A DNA stretch of 64,000 bases from IMG/VR virus record IMGVR_UViG_3300021957_000015, positions 1 through 64,000 of that record. One strand, 5' to 3'. The translations under genes were made by a program, and so were the position numbers. Of this stretch, positions 3,755-62,236 are shown piece after piece. The stretch is from a virus. The stretch's first letter is position 1. Every line of letters begins with the position of its first letter. The notes beneath the pieces were generated by a model. The model saw nothing but the letters and a program-made list of their open reading frames with translations, searched no databases and was not told the DNA's origin.

Positions 3755-4453
3755 ATGAAACACATTAAGGCTTACGAAAGTTTTATAAATGAAGGCAGAT
3801 CTAAGTATGATGGCTTAGCATCAAAATTGACTAAACTTACGTTTAAGAAATGGGTAAACACATATAAAGGTGGCAAAGCGGTTATCAATTATATGGACCA
3901 GATCGAAGAACGAGGTTTAGAATTTGACTTTGATGCAACTATTCATATAGACAAAAAATTTAAAGGCTTTGAAGTTTTACCTTCAACTGGTGCAGATGGT
4001 AGAGATGAGGACGATGATGGCGATTATCAAACTCCATACATTCTAATAGATTTTGGTATAAATCCTGATTGGATTCCAGGAGAATGGTCTACTGTATATT
4101 TTCATTTAGCAGATGTTATTAGACATGAAATGGAACACATAACACAGGATGGAGTAGACACTGGTAATTATAGAGCTGGTAAACCTATTGAAGATGATAG
4201 CGAAATAAGAAATCTAATTAACTTAGGTCTTCTACCATACTTTCATTATTTAATGTTACCCAAAGAAGTGGATGCCAATTTACAGGGACTTAGATATGAG
4301 GCTAAAAAAAGAAAAGAGCCAATGAGTGATGCAGTTAACAGATACTTAGACACTCAAATAGAAGGTGACGTAATCAGTAAACAAGAAAAAGAAGAAGTGT
4401 TGGATCTTTGGAGAAAACGCGCAGCAAAAATAGGTGGCATACCAAAATTTTAA
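3755..4453 (+). CDS. HExxH zinc metallopeptidase-like protein with capsid-targeting leader
   Basis: A 232-residue protein. Residues 1-13 (MKHIKAYESFINE) match the T4 capsid-targeting leader pattern and end in I-N-E, the (I/L)xE specificity of T4-type prohead protease, with G14 after the cut. The rest carries HEMEH at residues 124-128 (zinc ligands H124 and H128, catalytic E125). A later LPKEVDAN segment, with E171, fits the third ligand in gluzincin-like families that have HExxH then a P-x-E-x-x-A motif. An acidic loop (DEDDDGD) lies at 84-90. It is first in the cargo cluster. Read together, it may be a protease packaged in the capsid and delivered with DNA. The peptidase call rests on motifs only; its substrate is unknown. 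Confidence 0.6.
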   Translation: MKHIKAYESFINEGRSKYDGLASKLTKLTFKKWVNTYKGGKAVINYMDQIEERGLEFDFDATIHIDKKFKGFEVLPSTGADGRDEDDDGDYQTPYILIDFGINPDWIPGEWSTVYFHLADVIRHEMEHITQDGVDTGNYRAGKPIEDDSEIRNLINLGLLPYFHYLMLPKEVDANLQGLRYEAKKRKEPMSDAVNRYLDTQIEGDVISKQEKEEVLDLWRKRAAKIGGIPKF

Positions 4454-4454
4454 T

Positions 4455-5045
4455 ATGAAATACATAAACACATATGATAGTTTTTTGAATGAAGCTGCAG
4501 GTGGAAAAAAGACTGATGTTTTAAAGAAACATTTCGATAGAACAAATATGACGCTTGCAAAATGGATCAAAAAATATCTATTACCTCAGGAAAAACTTGA
4601 TTCTGAGTCTGATGCAGTTAATCTAATTACAAAGGTCAATAGTCGAAAATATTATAGTAAACTACCAACAATGTATTTCTTTGATGCACCGGCTGAAGAT
4701 CATCCATCAGATAAACTAATTGTACACTTTGTATCATCAGAAAAAATTAGACAAAATATTGTTAAACATGGCTTTATTTACGGTGAACCTGATTATCTTA
4801 AACTAGGTATGAATTGGTCTTCAAGACATAAGCCTAAAAGAGGGGTTGGATATAACTACGGCCTTGATTACGATGATATGTTAGAAAAATACGGGAGCTT
4901 AGAAAAGGGTGCAAAACATTGGGGAGCTTATCCTATTACATTTAAGTCCACTGATGCAATTAAAAATTATCACTTCGGTGACGACGTTGAACAAGTATTA
5001 TTTTGGGGACCGTCAGCGTATGATATAAAAGCAATTGAAATATGA
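4455..5045 (+). CDS. putative ADP-ribosyltransferase-like cargo protein with capsid-targeting leader
   Basis: A 196-residue protein starting at ATG 4455. A GTG at 4434 lies inside the upstream gene and would bury the leader. The leader MKYINTYDSFLNE ends in L-N-E with A14 after it. The body has LIVHFVS (H91), a G-F-x-x-G segment (residues 106-110), GVGYNYG (130-136) and a late EQVLFWG (E179, Q180). This order of His, aromatic and Glu/Gln segments resembles ADP-ribosyltransferase-like domains. T4 packages the ADP-ribosyltransferase Alt in the same way, so an Alt analogue is a reasonable hypothesis but not proven. It overlaps the next gene by four bases (ATGA). Confidence 0.45.
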   Translation: MKYINTYDSFLNEAAGGKKTDVLKKHFDRTNMTLAKWIKKYLLPQEKLDSESDAVNLITKVNSRKYYSKLPTMYFFDAPAEDHPSDKLIVHFVSSEKIRQNIVKHGFIYGEPDYLKLGMNWSSRHKPKRGVGYNYGLDYDDMLEKYGSLEKGAKHWGAYPITFKSTDAIKNYHFGDDVEQVLFWGPSAYDIKAIEI

Positions 5046-8000
5046 AATACATAAATGAAAAGGCGCCTAGCGTAAAAAGCAAAGTTAAGGACATCAATAA
5101 AAAGATTGGTAAACTGATTTCTAAAAAAGAAGATGCTATTAGTAAAGCTAAAGAAATGGCCGATTCTGAAGAACCTTCTGGAAAAATGCAATCAAGTTTA
5201 GCAAAGATACAACTTAGGCAATCTGAAGCAGAAGCTGAAAAGTTACTAATGCAAAAGCAAGCAGAAATACTTAAAGCTAAAATAGATACTGCTAAGAAAA
5301 AAGAAAAAACAACAGCCAACATAGAAGAAATGGAAAATAGACCAATTACAGTACTAGAGGGTGTTATGTCTGATATACATCAGATGATCAGCAACCATAA
5401 AAACTTTGATTCTTTTCAAAAAGAATTCTTTAAAGAGTACGGACATAAAAAAGTAATGAAGAAAACACCAGAATTTTTAGAATGGTTAGAAGCTCTTTAT
5501 AACGACAGTCAATTTGCAGTCGCTGAAGCAGATGCAAAACCAGGACCAGATCCATACATGAGAGGTCTAGATGACGATGAGGAAGAGAAGAAAGAAGATA
5601 AAATGAAAAAGCAAGCTGAAATGGACGATGATGATCCAGATGCTTACAAAGAATTACCAGGTGACAAAGAGGCCAAAGACAAAGGTGAAGTAAAAACTTC
5701 TAAACATGTCAAAAAATATCACGAATTATATGGTGATAAAAAGGACGAATCAGTAGTTACTGAAAAACTAGCTAGAGGTTTAAAGCCATTATTAAAGACA
5801 GGTTCAACTATTACTAAAAAGGTTGGTGAAGATGCATTATTAGATTTATCTGATAAGTTTGATAGCATAGATGATGAATATGCTGGTGATATAGCAAGTC
5901 ATTTGGATATGGCTATTGAATTAATGCAGGATGGTGAAGCAGGAGCCGCTACTAAAAAATTAAAGCAATTTAACAAAGCATGTAAGGATGTTCTTAATGG
6001 AAAGGAAGTTGGTTCAGCATTTGAATCTTTTTCTCAAAAAGATTGGGATGTAAAATGGAAGATGCCTAAAGACAATTTATTCAATGCAACTAAAACTACA
6101 AATGCAATTAATAACAGGTACAACGCTATACGATCCTTACTAAAGTCGAAGCCTACAGAATTAAAAGCCTTTGATAGTACTGACGACCATCCAGCATATG
6201 ACATGTCTTATGATGAGTTAATGAAATGGTTTAAAACCCTAAAAGAATCATTAGATGAAGCAGAAAAATACGATACTAAAGGATTTAAAGTAGGAGATAA
6301 AATTAAAACTAATTTCGGTGAATGGGAAGTAATTGAAACTGATTATGCGCCTAGAAAAAGTTTTACAGCGCCTTTTATATTTAAAGGAAAAGATATGAAA
6401 AGAGTAGACATACCTAATCCTCCTAAAACTAATAAGAATGCTGTAGGTTACAAAGTAACAGACGGTGCTAAATACCCAACTATTGGTTTCTTATATCAAT
6501 ATAAAGATATTACTAAACTTGCAACGGTTGGTGTTGATGAGAAGAATGTAATGCAAGATGATCCTGAAAAATTCGTTGAATCCAAAAATCTTAAGCACAT
6601 TAATCCATTAAAATTTACAGTAAACGAAGAAAAGGCCGAAGGAGATAGAGGTAAAATATCCGATGCTAAAATAGAAACAGCACTTAAAACTAAAGCCGAA
6701 GAAACTGGAGTGCCAATTGGTTTAATAAGAATCGTAATGAGAAGAGGTATGGCCGCATGGAAAACCGGACACAGACCTGGCGCAACTGAACAACAGTGGG
6801 GATATGCACGAGTAAACGCATTCTTAACTAAAGGTGACGGCACATGGGGTGGAGCAGATAAAGATGTTGCTAAAGAAGTTAGAGATGGTGGACATGATAA
6901 AGGTCTAAAGGAAAGAATAGAATCAGATATCAGATTAAGTGATAAAGTAGTAGCATTTAAGACTGAGGCTCCAGCAGATGAAGATTCACAATCTCCTAAT
7001 TCTATTACATGTGGTAATTGTGCATGGACTTGGATGAAACAAGACGGTGGTGATGATATGTATACATGTCACAAGTGTGGAACAGAAAATGCACCTTCAC
7101 TAGGTGAATCTGTGTTAAACGAAGAAGATACTTACAATGATTATCCTGCCGCTGCTAAAAAGAATGCAAAAAAAGCACTTGACTGGCGAGACGAACATGG
7201 AAGAGAAGAAGTAGATGCTGGAACTGCAGTTGGATGGACACGTGCAAATCAATTAGCCAAGGGTGAAAAAATCTCAGCTGACACTATAAAGAGAATGGCA
7301 TCGTTTAACAGACATAGAAAGAATTCTTCAATAAAAGCTGAATTAAAAGGAACTCCATGGAAAGACAAAGGGTATGTTTCTTGGTTAATTTGGGGTGGAG
7401 ATGAAGGTGTCGATTGGGCAATGAAAAAATCAAAAGAATTAGATAATATGAAAGAGTCAAAACAAATGAAATATGTCAAGCACCTTTTTGAAGGTAAAAC
7501 ATTATCGTATGCAAAGGTTAGTATGTTAGGTTCTAAGGTCATAAATAAAATTAGTATTGGAACTATATTAGACACTAAAACTGGTCAATATGAAATTACA
7601 GATCATGGTCGACAGTCTAATGCTTTTAAAGAATTTGAAGCTGAACATAATGGCAAAATAGTAAAGGTGAAATTAACTGTAATGTATGGCATTAAACTAG
7701 AAGCGACAGATGATGTACGTAGTGCTAGATTTGATCAAGAACTAGAACTAAATTCTATTATTTTAGAATCAGCAATCACTGAAGGCATATATGCTAAAAA
7801 AAGTAAAATAACACCTGGTGAATATATTCAAACTCAATATGGTTATTTCTATAAAAGAGTTGAAGGTAAAGTAGGAGGACAAGATGCTTATGTTGAAATA
7901 AAGAAAGGTAAAGAAGGAAAGAGAAAGACAAGCATTCATGATACAGTTGATTTTGATATAGTTGATAAATCTATAGCTCTTAGCGAATCCTTAGTTAATG

Positions 8001-8764
8001 AAGGTAAAATAGTAATTACTAAAAATGAATGGCCGTATCTTGAGTTTAAAGACGGTAGTAGAAGACATAAAGTAGAATTCGACTATGAAGATATTATTGA
8101 TGATCATGGAAACGAGGGTCAAGATCAATATTGGGTAGGTAAAGATGATCAAGGTCAAGAATGGGTTATCGATGTTTATGCTGATATGCGAGGAGAAGTT
8201 GAAGAGGTACACTATGATACTCTGGTAAAAGAATCAACTAAAACACTAAAGTATATTAAACCATTAAATGAAAGTTATTGGAGTAGTTATGAATATGAAA
8301 AGTGGGTTAAAGATAATGGTAAACCTAAATATCCAAAATGGATAAAATCTACTTTAAAAGAAATTACAAATGCAGGGTTTATGGATCCAGTTTACAATTC
8401 TGAACATCAATATATGGTTGTATGGTTAAGTTCATTCGATAATAAAAAAAGATCTGAGCTATTAGCTTATGATAAAAAAGGCATTAAAGAGCTTGGTCAA
8501 ACGGGCTATGAAATGTATAAGAGATTCTACAATGATTTAACAGGTTACAATATGTTCTCTATGATGGGCGCTATATATGCTTTGGAAGTTTCTAAACATA
8601 TTGAAGATAGAGTTGCAAATGGTGAGCCGGTAGAGCCAGCATACTATATGATGAAGGAGTACTTTAACAATATGGGCATGGACACTAAAAGAAGTAGGAT
8701 TTTTAATGCAGCATATGAAAAGTTAGAAAAATGGATGAAAGAAAACAGCATTCCAACTTTATAA
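5042..8764 (+). CDS. giant modular head-cargo polyprotein (1,240 aa)
   Basis: Begins MKYINEK, a shortened leader with I-N-E at residues 4-6. Further tag-like or (L/I/V)xE sites occur at E406 (LDE/A), E529 (VNE/E, after LKHINPLKF), E694 (LNE/E), E817 (LFE/G, after MKYVKH), E914 (ITE/G), E987 (VNE/G) and E1077 (LNE/S, after LKYIKP). Between them lie distinct modules. Residues 1-240 are a charged coiled-coil region with PDAYKELPGD and TSKHVKKYHELY. About 540-625 is a phage domain with GHRPGATEQQWGYARVNAF. A zinc ribbon has C657, C660, C676 and C679. About 697-803 is a DYPAAAKKNAKKAL...GWTRANQLAKGE domain known from phage head regions. The remaining modules are unrecognised. I infer a polyprotein cut by the prohead protease into packaged fragments. 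No enzyme activity is assigned. Confidence 0.65.
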   Translation: MKYINEKAPSVKSKVKDINKKIGKLISKKEDAISKAKEMADSEEPSGKMQSSLAKIQLRQSEAEAEKLLMQKQAEILKAKIDTAKKKEKTTANIEEMENRPITVLEGVMSDIHQMISNHKNFDSFQKEFFKEYGHKKVMKKTPEFLEWLEALYNDSQFAVAEADAKPGPDPYMRGLDDDEEEKKEDKMKKQAEMDDDDPDAYKELPGDKEAKDKGEVKTSKHVKKYHELYGDKKDESVVTEKLARGLKPLLKTGSTITKKVGEDALLDLSDKFDSIDDEYAGDIASHLDMAIELMQDGEAGAATKKLKQFNKACKDVLNGKEVGSAFESFSQKDWDVKWKMPKDNLFNATKTTNAINNRYNAIRSLLKSKPTELKAFDSTDDHPAYDMSYDELMKWFKTLKESLDEAEKYDTKGFKVGDKIKTNFGEWEVIETDYAPRKSFTAPFIFKGKDMKRVDIPNPPKTNKNAVGYKVTDGAKYPTIGFLYQYKDITKLATVGVDEKNVMQDDPEKFVESKNLKHINPLKFTVNEEKAEGDRGKISDAKIETALKTKAEETGVPIGLIRIVMRRGMAAWKTGHRPGATEQQWGYARVNAFLTKGDGTWGGADKDVAKEVRDGGHDKGLKERIESDIRLSDKVVAFKTEAPADEDSQSPNSITCGNCAWTWMKQDGGDDMYTCHKCGTENAPSLGESVLNEEDTYNDYPAAAKKNAKKALDWRDEHGREEVDAGTAVGWTRANQLAKGEKISADTIKRMASFNRHRKNSSIKAELKGTPWKDKGYVSWLIWGGDEGVDWAMKKSKELDNMKESKQMKYVKHLFEGKTLSYAKVSMLGSKVINKISIGTILDTKTGQYEITDHGRQSNAFKEFEAEHNGKIVKVKLTVMYGIKLEATDDVRSARFDQELELNSIILESAITEGIYAKKSKITPGEYIQTQYGYFYKRVEGKVGGQDAYVEIKKGKEGKRKTSIHDTVDFDIVDKSIALSESLVNEGKIVITKNEWPYLEFKDGSRRHKVEFDYEDIIDDHGNEGQDQYWVGKDDQGQEWVIDVYADMRGEVEEVHYDTLVKESTKTLKYIKPLNESYWSSYEYEKWVKDNGKPKYPKWIKSTLKEITNAGFMDPVYNSEHQYMVVWLSSFDNKKRSELLAYDKKGIKELGQTGYEMYKRFYNDLTGYNMFSMMGAIYALEVSKHIEDRVANGEPVEPAYYMMKEYFNNMGMDTKRSRIFNAAYEKLEKWMKENSIPTL

Positions 8765-9391: not shown

Positions 9392-9688
9392 ATGAAATAC
9401 TTACAACTATTTGAACATTTCATTAATGAAAGATTTAACTCTAAAAGAGCAGAGAAAGAACTAAAAGCAATGGGATTTAAAGGTGCTGATGGCAGTGGAG
9501 GTGAAATTTCAGTTGAAACTGCAGAAATGGAAAATCCATTCGGCAATGATGCAGCATTTACATTCTTTTGGAACGGTAAAGACGTATGGGCAGAAGCTGA
9601 AGATGGTTCTTATGCAGAACAAGCCCAAGAAATCGAAACGGTAGAACAGTTCGCAGACTGTCTTGAATTTGGAGAGGGTTGGTCATAA
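9392..9688 (+). CDS. small internal head protein with capsid-targeting leader (98 aa)
   Basis: Begins MKYLQLFEHFINE/RF: a 13-residue leader in the same register as those at 3755 and 4455, with I-N-E at 11-13. After the leader it has a basic helix (SKRAEKELKAMGFKG) and an acidic, aromatic C-terminal half (AAFTFFWNGKDVWAEAEDG). Size and architecture resemble T4 internal proteins IPI-IPIII, which are packaged and injected and can counter host defences. No specific function is recognised. It is the last gene of the cargo unit, ahead of a strong terminator. Confidence 0.6.
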   Translation: MKYLQLFEHFINERFNSKRAEKELKAMGFKGADGSGGEISVETAEMENPFGNDAAFTFFWNGKDVWAEAEDGSYAEQAQEIETVEQFADCLEFGEGWS

Positions 9689-59079: not shown

Positions 59080-60909
59080 ATGGATAAATTAAAAAACTTC
59101 GAGCAATTTGCTAAGGTAAAAACCGAACGTGATGCCGCTCAATTAAAAGAAGAGCAAGATTCTAAAAGATCAGCAGAAGCTAATACCTTCAAATCTCTTT
59201 TATCAGAATTCAATGTCACTTCTATTAAAGAATTATCAGAAGATCAAAAATCTGAATTTTTTACTAAACTAAGAGGTGTTGAGGTTTCTGAATCCTTTTT
59301 AATTATAGAAGGAACTAGAGGACAGTTTGGTAAAATAGACAAAAAAGGTAACATAGAATCAGTGTATACACATTACGACTCATATCCTGATAACATGCTA
59401 CCACTTATCAAGAAAACATATTTAAAAGGTGGTTCACCTCTAAATATGGTTCTTAAAAATGGAGATAATTCAGGTTTAGAAGCTGATCCAAGAGGAATGA
59501 ACTACTACGGAGACTCCGATAATATGAAAGGTAACGTTAAAAACATTGACAGATACATTTCAACAGCAGGCGATAAAGGTGGTGCAGAATTCATTTACCT
59601 TTTTGATGAAAAATCAGGAAAGTGGTTAATGGCAGACATATATGCAGGTGATAAAGATTTAAAACCAGCATTTGAATCTGTAGAAATTAATGAAGCTATT
59701 AAAGTAGAAGGTAAGAGAGATGCTAAGAAAGTAGTAACTCAGTATAATCAAATTTTGTTTTCTAAATTAAATGCAATCGGTGCATCTAACGATAAGAAGA
59801 CTTTATTGGGTGCAATTAAAAAATTATTCTTAGATTCAATGGAAGATGCTAATTTCCATAGAGAAAGAGAAAAGTGTGCAGGCGCTATCAAAGGTAATAT
59901 AGGATCTATTCCAGTAATAGTTGATGGTTTAGGCAAAATGTCAGTAAACATTGGATCAACAAGAATTAAAGATGCGTTAGAAAAAGAATATTCTAGAATT
60001 TCAAATGCAGCTGGATGGTCAGGTCAAGGTATTGCAGAAGGAACTGCATTATTCTTAGAGCAGTGTGGCTTTGCTAAAATGGGACAAGATTTACTAGATA
60101 GGTTTAACTCTTTCTTTGAAGGTGAAGTAAAAGACAACTTTGAATTTAGAATGTTTGAAACTATTAAATATGCAGAAAGTGTATTAGAAGCTACTGTAGT
60201 TATGGATGCAACAGATCCTGGATCTAAAGTATTAAAAAAATTACTTAAGAAACACAAAGTTACAATGGAGATCATCGATAACGAAGGTCCAACAGGTTTC
60301 CCAGAAGTTGAATTAACGGGTTCAAGAGAAGATCTACAATCAGTGTTAGGCTCTGACGATGGTTGGGGTGATCCTGAATTAGGGGAATACATTGAAGAAT
60401 CTAACGAAACCTTTAAGATTAAAGTTAAAGCTTTAAATGAAGCTAAATTTGTAAAAGATTTTAATAAAGATGTTTTAGGTGCTGAAACTAAAGAAGATAT
60501 AAAATCTTATTATCCATCAGCTAAATTCTTTATTGGTAAATTGACACACTTCTTTGGAGAACTAGAACCTAACCTATTCTTTAAAGCTTACTATGCTAGA
60601 TACTACAAAGAAGATACGGGCAAGAAAATTAAAGGTGACTTTAAAATTACTTCAATCTACTCTGAAAAGGGTAGTAATTATGTTCACTTACACAATGAAT
60701 CTGCTAAAACAGTAGAAGCTCCAAAAGTAAACGAAGCAGAAGTTACTTCAGACGAAGAATTTAAAGAGTATGCATTTTCAGTATTAAAGAAAGCATTCGG
60801 AGATGAATTTGACGAAGATAAGGCAGGTGAAGTTGTAGACGGATTAATTTCTAAAAACTCAGGAGATTACGGTGCTATGGTTGGTGCCTTAAAATCATCA
60901 CTAGGGTAA
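59080..60909 (+). CDS. second leader-bearing head-cargo polyprotein (609 aa)
   Basis: Begins MDKLKNFEQFAKVKTE, a diverged leader (F-E-Q-F). Cleavage-like sites lie at IIE77/G78, INE205/A206 and LNE454/A455, and a weaker VNE552/A553. Module 78-205 has a GTRGQFGKIDKKGNIESVYT...YDSYPDN...FIYLFDEKSGKW pattern seen in marine-phage proteins. Module 206-454 is helical then beta-rich, with SRISNAAGWSGQGIAEGTAL and EFRMFETIKYAESVLEA. The last module ends in an acidic helical region. No enzyme motif is recognised. Architecture parallels the larger polyprotein at 5042. Confidence 0.55.
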   Translation: MDKLKNFEQFAKVKTERDAAQLKEEQDSKRSAEANTFKSLLSEFNVTSIKELSEDQKSEFFTKLRGVEVSESFLIIEGTRGQFGKIDKKGNIESVYTHYDSYPDNMLPLIKKTYLKGGSPLNMVLKNGDNSGLEADPRGMNYYGDSDNMKGNVKNIDRYISTAGDKGGAEFIYLFDEKSGKWLMADIYAGDKDLKPAFESVEINEAIKVEGKRDAKKVVTQYNQILFSKLNAIGASNDKKTLLGAIKKLFLDSMEDANFHREREKCAGAIKGNIGSIPVIVDGLGKMSVNIGSTRIKDALEKEYSRISNAAGWSGQGIAEGTALFLEQCGFAKMGQDLLDRFNSFFEGEVKDNFEFRMFETIKYAESVLEATVVMDATDPGSKVLKKLLKKHKVTMEIIDNEGPTGFPEVELTGSREDLQSVLGSDDGWGDPELGEYIEESNETFKIKVKALNEAKFVKDFNKDVLGAETKEDIKSYYPSAKFFIGKLTHFFGELEPNLFFKAYYARYYKEDTGKKIKGDFKITSIYSEKGSNYVHLHNESAKTVEAPKVNEAEVTSDEEFKEYAFSVLKKAFGDEFDEDKAGEVVDGLISKNSGDYGAMVGALKSSLG

Positions 60910-60964: not shown

Positions 60965-62236
60965 ATGAAAATATATACAGACTTTAGTACATTTATAACT
61001 GAAAGGGTTCATTTACAAGAATCTAATTTAATATTAGAAGGTGGAGCAGCCGGCCACATGTCACACCCGTTTGATAACAAGTCATTGACATTCGGCGATT
61101 TTAAAAAGCTTATAGAATCTGGATTAAGTGGAGAACTTAATTTTGAAGAAGATCCTACTGAAAAAACAGATGGCCAAAATTTATTTGCAACTGTTAAAGA
61201 TGGAGAAACAATGTTTGCCAGAAATAAGGGTCAAATGAAAAATCCAATAGACCTAAACGGTATTATTAAGATGTTTACTGGTCACGCTTCTAAATTAGTA
61301 GAAGAAACATATATTTTTGCAGCAAAAGATTTAGCTGACGCTTTACCAAAACTTAAGGATCAATCAATGTTTGCAAACGGATTAAATTTCGTTAACATGG
61401 AATTGATCTACTCTAAAAATCCCAACGTGATATATTATGATAGAGATGTTATTCAATTTCACAATATAACAGAAACAGACGGAGAAGGTAATCAAACAGG
61501 AACTCAAAATTTAGCAACAGAATTAGTAGGTGCTTTAAAAGAATTAAAGAAAGATGTTCAAAACACATTTACTATAATTCCACCACAAGTATTAAAGATT
61601 GCTAAAGACGTTGACTTTGAAGCAAACAAGTCAAAATTCATTAAACAAGTAGAAGCATTAAAGAATCGTTATAAATTAACAGATGCTGACGAAGTTTCCA
61701 GATATCATGAAATGTGGTGGAGAGAAACGATAGACACAAATTTCCCTGATCTAGAACAAAACCATAAAGAAGGTTTATTATTAAGATGGGCATATGGCGA
61801 TAAGAAAACTTTAAACTTAAGATCATTAGACAAAGCTATCGGTAAAGACAAAGCTGCACTAATTAAGAAGTTTGATAAAGAAGATGTTAAAAAGAAGTAT
61901 AAAGAAAACATTAGACCATTTGAAGATCTATTCTTAGAATTAGGATCAGTAATCTTGAAAAACGCAAGTAACTTTGTAGCTGCATCGCCAGATAAAGAAA
62001 TGCAAAGACTACATAATCAAATTAGAACTGAAGCTGCTAAGATTAAAAAATCAGGTGGAATTGATCAGATTAAAAAAGTTGAAGCTGAACTTGCTAGACT
62101 AGAAAGAATCGGTGGAATAGAGTCTATTATACCAACTGAAGGTTTAGTTTTTAAATATAAGGGACATACTTATAAACTAACTGGAACTTTTGCTGCAATT
62201 AATCAATTAATGGGAATTATTAAATACGGTAGATAA
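60965..62236 (+). CDS. polynucleotide-ligase/nucleotidyltransferase-like cargo enzyme with triple-site leader (423 aa)
   Basis: The leader holds three (L/I)xE sites: ITE13/R, LQE19/S and ILE25/G26, after which GGAAGHMSHPFDN begins the core. The core has K67-T-D-G, the KxDG nucleophile motif of ATP/GTP-dependent ligases and capping enzymes, followed by MFARNKGQMKN, a VNMELIYSKNPNVIYYD segment, and late EGLVFKYKGHTYKLTG (motif IV-like). These fit a ligase-superfamily nucleotidyltransferase known from marine T4-type phages. It joins or adenylylates nucleic-acid ends, or acts on a metabolite. A packaged ligase would be delivered at infection. Confidence 0.65.
   Translation: MKIYTDFSTFITERVHLQESNLILEGGAAGHMSHPFDNKSLTFGDFKKLIESGLSGELNFEEDPTEKTDGQNLFATVKDGETMFARNKGQMKNPIDLNGIIKMFTGHASKLVEETYIFAAKDLADALPKLKDQSMFANGLNFVNMELIYSKNPNVIYYDRDVIQFHNITETDGEGNQTGTQNLATELVGALKELKKDVQNTFTIIPPQVLKIAKDVDFEANKSKFIKQVEALKNRYKLTDADEVSRYHEMWWRETIDTNFPDLEQNHKEGLLLRWAYGDKKTLNLRSLDKAIGKDKAALIKKFDKEDVKKKYKENIRPFEDLFLELGSVILKNASNFVAASPDKEMQRLHNQIRTEAAKIKKSGGIDQIKKVEAELARLERIGGIESIIPTEGLVFKYKGHTYKLTGTFAAINQLMGIIKYGR

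Follow-up and report, generated by a model that had tools for sequence, protein, structure and literature searches.

A modular open reading frame in an uncultured virus record as a candidate cargo precursor of a T4-type phage head

The sequence studied comprises positions 1 to 64,000 of the IMG/VR virus record IMGVR_UViG_3300021957_000015 (hereafter the window), and the element characterized here is the open reading frame (ORF) at 5042-8764 on the plus strand, which starts with ATG, has no internal stop and encodes a polyprotein of 1,240 amino acids. The modules and the three flanking tagged genes described below lie on the same strand. The ORF product is probably a modular precursor of cargo for a T4-type phage head, to be cut at the joins between its modules into small packaged proteins. 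Support comes from the modularity of the chain, exchange at the sites, a motif shared by leaders and joins, a protease in large relatives and two predicted folds. The record holding the window (G000) is 79,169 bp long in IMG/VR and apparently a fragment.

Modules and joins of the chain

Judged from its sequence, the 1,240-residue chain is made up of about 12 modules placed head to tail, the sites being E6, E106, E165 (weaker), E241, E328 (degenerate), E406, E529, E694, E817, E914, E987, and E1077. Most joins carry a glutamate site of the form [V/L/I]-[N/T]-E, which matches the leader ends on neighboring separate genes and the L/I-X-E motif after which T4 gp21 cuts (PMC9026906). The first-pass annotation of the window had divided the protein at leader-like and xE sites; the modular division holds, but its count of about eight modules was too low. 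The three tag-like pieces that it quoted were all located in the ORF, LKHINPLKFTVNE at residues 517-529, MKYVKHLFE at residues 809-817 and LKYIKPLNE at residues 1069-1077, and the Met-Lys start that it saw in MKYVKH corresponds to an in-frame ATG at nt 7466. Its description of the modules as leader-separated applies to these three joins, which have a full-leader look, but the others are mostly shorter ES(V/L)(V/L)(N/T)E sites. An internal start at the ATG was considered; no stop precedes it, so it would give at most an added second product.

The motif [ILV][NT]E occurs seven times in the polyprotein compared to 1.75 expected by shuffling (P = 0.0016), and ES..[NTSD]E, a pattern picked after the sequences had been read, occurs five times compared to 0.54 expected (maximum of 4 in 2,000 shuffles). 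The remainder of the window contains 11 join-type motifs in 18,050 amino acids.

A scan of viral contigs (IMG/VR relatives) gave 27 loci, in which the same modules were reordered, whole modules were missing or added, or modules were present as separate leader-tagged genes. Longer, shorter and rearranged counterparts of the polyprotein include those of L001 (1,337 amino acids), L002 (1,161), L003 (1,016), and L152 (926). An assembly artefact or a pseudogene was ruled out by these long rearranged ORFs and by ratios of non-synonymous to synonymous substitution rates (dN/dS) of 0.02-0.42 in the modules tested. Every module tested was under purifying selection; M4, which has no close partner, was outside the test. 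In window-protein residues, the block order of L001 is 1-247, 526-854, 404-507, 987-1068, and 1069-1240. The homologous blocks of L004 are spread over separate ORFs, two of which open with MKYIKLF and bear the M8 and M12 modules. M8 and M12 enclose none to several variable cassettes across relatives, and are joined directly through KELKHIKPLNE in L005. The clearest case is the close relative L152, from which residues 242-526 (M4-M6) and 819-912 (M9) are cleanly missing: ESVVNE runs straight into DKAEGDRG in L152, whereas the window has ESVVTE, then M4-M6 ending in TVNE, ahead of EKAEGDRG; likewise, MRYIKPLTE directly precedes GIYAK in L152, whereas the window has MKYVKHLFE, then M9 ending in SAITE, ahead of GIYAK. 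DNA blocks shared by the window and L152 end at most about 4 codons from the codon for the P1 glutamate. The DNA identity of the window to L003 is 95.3% in M10, compared to 80.8% in M8 and 78.7% in M12, and therefore single cassettes have separate recent histories.

Among 24 related proteins, 30% of 242 homology-block ends lay within 5 amino acids of a site, compared to 6.6% for random positions (maximum of 12% in 2,000 trials); the sites were defined after the sequences were seen, which weakens the site counts given above and this position test less so. After three further scans, two or more joins were detected in 55 of 1,346 ORFs compared to 8.3 expected, and about 42 non-redundant modular proteins were left of the 55, including one with 11 joins (L127). 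Cutting at the joins in silico gave 208 segments with a median of 104 amino acids and 36 families of at least two members, 32 of which adjoin more than one neighbor; single-linkage clustering lumped some modules (family F0) and the family numbers are approximate. Two alignments of mixed short fragments (A5 and A6, MAFFT) were misaligned and left out. A scan of genome contigs found no relative, a tblastn search with the polyproteins of L021 and L010 against cultured phages gave no match, and a motif scan of the cultured jumbo phage PTm1, among the nearest by capsid protein, found no such polyprotein. A PADLOC run gave no match.

The chain opens with a short leader, MKYINE (5042-5059), with a predicted cut after E6 and with counterparts MKYIQTLSE, MRYIKSLNE, and MRFIKPLNE in relatives. 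M1 (residues 7-106; 5060-5359; dN/dS 0.18) is lysine-rich and coiled-coil-like and ends in VLE; it is a separate leader-tagged gene directly upstream of the polyprotein in L003, L005, L006, and L007. M2 (residues 107-165; 5360-5536; dN/dS 0.03), the GVMSDIHQM module, follows ISE or ITE sites in another context in L010/L009 and L015, and M3 (residues 166-241; 5537-5764; dN/dS 0.05), which is acidic and ends in ESVVTE, follows LSE in L004. The boundary of M4 (residues 242-328; 5765-6025) was deduced; the module is absent from L152 together with M5 and M6. M5 (residues 329-406; 6026-6259; dN/dS 0.12) ends in ESLDE and is an internal cassette after ESVNE or ESVTE in L023 and L026. M6 (residues 407-500) is followed by a tail fragment and the leader-type join LKHINPLKFTVNE (residues 501-529; 6260-6628 together); its DNA is about 90-93% identical in L001, L003, and L015, at differing places in the order, and the tail fragment matches a different place in L001 and L002.

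M7 (residues 530-694; 6629-7123), which ends in ESVLNE, combines a DUF5824 domain (Pfam, 54.9 bits) and a zinc ribbon that lie on different ORFs in L004. M8 (residues 695-817; 7124-7492) is a helical domain of about 110 amino acids followed by the leader-type join MKYVKHLFE, and is a stand-alone tagged gene in many phages. M9 (residues 818-914; 7493-7783) ends in ESAITE; it is absent with clean junctions from L152 and stands in other orders in L004, L010, L015, L021, and L022. M10 (residues 915-987; 7784-8002), the module most similar to L003 in the comparison above, ends in ESLVNE, and M11 (residues 988-1077; 8003-8272; dN/dS 0.12) ends in the leader-type join LKYIKPLNE. The C-terminal helical domain, M12 (residues 1078-1240; 8273-8764), is a stand-alone tagged gene in L004, L059, L060, and L072. 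The head-to-tail fusion of leader-tagged cargo genes that the first-pass annotation had proposed is thus borne out by relatives in which M1, M8, and M12 are separate leader-tagged genes and by leader remnants inside the fusions.

Leaders, prohead protease and predicted folds

Leaders and joins carry a common signal. The 64 leaders have E at P1 and V, L, or I at P3, and N occupies P2 in 73% of them; part of this was dictated by the search pattern. Of the 147 internal joins, 139 have V, I, or L at P3 and 53% have A or G at P1', and here the search made no demand at either position. Polyproteins contain sites of the class [ILV]NE[AGKS] at six times the density of other long ORFs. In single-module genes the leader stands directly ahead of the module: stand-alone M12 reads MKHIKLFEQFVTE followed by GFW in L059 and L060, while the fused M12 of L061 reads LKHIKLFEQFISVNE followed by S, a leader with its start Met changed to Leu. 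M8 is a stand-alone tagged gene in L157, L170, and L175, and the tagged genes that contain it hold one, two, or three modules. Where M8 is untagged or fused to head proteins, the site is usually absent, which suggests that the signal follows the tagged context and not the M8 domain; the contigs concerned are short, which limits the contrast.

The DNA of the joins is also informative. The 110 ES(V/L/I)(V/L/I)(N/T)E joins have 59 DNA spellings, and their Val codons are skewed, with GTT in 45 of 47 cases at the second position (49% background) and GTA in 38 of 45 at the first (43% background); the join copies are related and the significance of the skew is indicative only. These non-random codons suggest that the joins may also act as short homologous recombination seams for in-frame exchange. 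The ESVVTE join at 5747-5764 is mostly spelt GAATCAGTAGTTACTGAA across relatives, the window included.

A Peptidase_S77 domain was detected in the close relative G001 and in G005-G009. Among further records, it occurs in 12 of 29 that are tagged or encode a polyprotein, compared to none of the 21, mostly short, in which M8 is untagged. All 12 module-bearing tagged records tested that exceed 100 kb contain a gp21-like S77 protease, although the match in G023 is below the curated cut-off. In G001, the protease adjoins a Portal_T4 gene and a Gp23 capsid gene. The putative link from the S77 protease to the joins is made through the motif only. In portal and capsid, the group is closest to huge uncultured phages, Sphingomonas phage PAU, Lak phages, and Tenacibaculum phage PTm1. 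Going by PTm1, among the nearest cultured phages in capsid protein, marine Bacteroidota are a guess at the hosts. In L042 (14160-16622, equal to G001:147160-149622), L032, and L033, the S77 prohead protease forms the N-terminus of a longer protein, over 630 amino acids in length (820 in G001), that has a long acidic scaffold-like tail; one PTm1 protein is annotated as scaffold and protease together.

Structure prediction, to which the first-pass annotation had looked for each module, was confident for M8 and M12, the only modules for which independent folding is predicted, but several others were modeled poorly. M8 modeled alone (AlphaFold) had a predicted local distance difference test score (pLDDT) of 94.6 and a predicted template modeling score (pTM) of 0.85. 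In a model of residues 695-1240, M12 had a pLDDT of about 90 and its first helix begins about 5 residues past the predicted cut at E1077, while the join regions and beta-rich modules were of low confidence. M8 had no Pfam match and its model no PDB match, and the fold of residues 695-1240 had no significant PDB match. A BFVD search with residues 695-1240 gave two matches with E < 0.001, to an XkdF-domain protein and to a portal protein; with about 104 columns aligned, both fit the M8 region.

M8 (7124-7459; L157-L231) was present in at least 574 stretches of viral contigs, either by itself, with or without a leader, or fused to portal, capsid or XkdF-type prohead-protease proteins. Gene 459 of the cultured Salicola phage SCTP-2 (L049:3923-4312) is a stand-alone M8 with the leader-like start MKINDFTSTKLFEDE. 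Other domains fused to head proteins have been reasoned to be head-packaged (PMC9503650), and by that reasoning the M8 fusions with portal, prohead-protease or capsid genes seen elsewhere among viruses are consistent with a head-packaged domain.

Proposed processing and alternative explanations

That the chain is cut, packaged and delivered is our inference from the sequence, as is any role for the individual modules. The leader and the leader-like joins would bring the chain to the prohead core; in T4, the IPIII leader carries a reporter such as GFP into heads. As the head matures, the S77 (gp21-like) prohead protease would cut after the glutamate at the [V/L/I]-[N/T/x]-E joins and free about 12 small proteins in mature form. 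Some of these, or all, may stay with the DNA and be delivered at infection. In evolution, the joins would double as in-frame seams at which cassettes are gained, lost, swapped and reordered, and a cassette could leave the chain to become a separate tagged gene or rejoin it by fusion.

Several observations weigh against this proposal. The window's own 79-kb record had no S77 protease match, probably because the record is a fragment. The joins at E106, E165, and E328 are weak, and the N-terminal leader MKYINE is shorter than the 10-residue capsid targeting sequence (CTS) of T4. Most modules are without known activity, DUF5824 being the only match over the cut-off in a Pfam search of the chain, and for several modules the alignment was too shallow to judge independent folding.

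The chain could instead be a multidomain polyvalent protein, either packaged and injected whole or cleaved by a zincin of its own once injected, with joins that are flexible linkers where domains recombine. Polyvalent proteins are long phage proteins with 2-15 shuffled, unrelated domains; they are probably carried in the virion and thought to be injected, some being packaged uncut (Iyer et al., 2017, PMC5512222). The chain likewise holds several unrelated domains (DUF5824, zinc ribbon, M8, M12, and others), and module shuffling by itself would yield the same mosaics. Nevertheless, we consider this explanation unlikely: no zincin or other metallopeptidase domain, nor any other catalogued polyvalent domain, was found in the chain (Pfam), the HExxH motif lying outside it in the separate gene at 3755-4453; the joins match the prohead protease motif and keep the P3 and P1 residues of separate-gene leaders; and the same modules also occur as single leader-tagged genes, in which there is no linker between domains.

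A prohead core or scaffold-like protein, chopped by the protease into peptides that leave the head, would have parallels in T4 gp22, gp67, and gp68, since T4 core proteins are cut to several fragments by gp21 (PMC9026906), and M1 and M3 are charged and of low complexity. G001, however, already has a scaffold-like region fused to its protease and a small tagged gene beside it in the gp67 position, and the modules are conserved domains with their own histories, two having predicted compact folds and one, M8, being joined elsewhere among viruses to portal, prohead-protease and capsid proteins; a core role is therefore very unlikely. We give even less credence to the recurring joins being the spread of a short recombination-mediating DNA repeat without a proteolytic role. 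The skewed Val codons do indicate that the spellings share ancestry or are kept alike, but 59 spellings among 110 joins speak against a repeat, as does the same protein motif at the end of single-module leaders, which need no recombination seam. A seam role and cutting can coexist.

Neighboring genes, related systems and significance

Full leaders of the form MK(Y/H)xxx(Y/F)(E/D)xF(I/L)NE open three genes flanking the polyprotein. The gene at 3755-4453 begins with MKHIKAYESFINE followed by G and contains an HEMEH (HExxH) motif; its PHROG matches are weak and of unknown function, and it has no Pfam match. The gene at 4455-5045 begins with MKYINTYDSFLNE followed by A, and its stop overlaps the polyprotein start. 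Downstream, the gene at 9392-9688 begins with MKYLQLFEHFINE followed by R, and a similar tagged gene is downstream in L001 and L002. The ORF at 59080-60909 (609 amino acids, beginning MDKLKNFEQFAK) is, by its sequence, probably a second modular protein of the window because its residues 333-442 form a module shared with residues 367-462 of the L010 polyprotein. The ORF at 60965-62236 (423 amino acids) has the leader MKIYTDFSTFITE and the motif GGAAGHMSHPFDN; by eye, we take it to resemble putative nucleotidyltransferases of marine T4-like phages. Two separate leader-tagged genes of L037 (7799-8143 and 4869-5798) weakly match a GNAT acetyltransferase and an ATP-grasp ligase and are possible packaged enzymes.

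The T4 internal proteins IPI, IPII, and IPIII and Alt (PMC9026906, PMC3012670) resemble the window ORF in having a short N-terminal leader ending in L/I-X-E (MKYINE in the ORF), and a conserved leader ahead of small, diverse cargo; the S77 protease and the T4-type portal and capsid of that system are here seen in relatives. The first ten residues of IPIII are needed for packaging (PMC9026906), and the T4 cargo is injected and its internal proteins vary between T-even phages (PMC9026906, PMC3012670). In T4, however, each cargo protein is a separate gene, whereas the window ORF has about 12 modules in one chain with internal sites and an order that varies between phages, which sets it apart as a variant of the T4 internal-protein system. 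The ejection proteins of phiKZ and SPN3US are likewise packaged head proteins, cut after A/S-X-E by the gp21 relatives gp175 and gp245, but a propeptide is removed from one protein, and the parts of these reports consulted do not describe several mature proteins from one precursor (PMC5694885, PMC7411985). The literature on phage polyproteins cut by prohead proteases was not found to describe the arrangement, most subscription journals and preprints lying outside the search. RNA-virus polyproteins also give many products from one precursor through cuts by a viral protease. They differ from the present case, a dsDNA tailed phage in which the presumed protease is a separate capsid-maturation enzyme and cassettes are shuffled between relatives.

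If the proposal is true, tailed phages use the polyprotein strategy for packaged cargo. Product amounts would be fixed as equal, one targeting event would replace a dozen, and effector sets would evolve through in-frame cassette exchange. The sites would also make new packaged phage proteins easy to find by a single rule: any module flanked by two joins is a candidate injected effector, and nearly all of these are undescribed. Cargo evolution would become testable, since module phylogenies, join sequences and protease specificity could be compared over tens of records. It is about as likely as not that many uncultured T4-like phages keep a cassette-exchange locus for injected effectors, which in dsDNA phages would correspond to RNA-virus polyproteins and to cassette arrays alike. 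Its joins would serve as both protease sites and recombination seams, so that a whole effector set would be produced together, packaged in equal numbers and rearranged as one.

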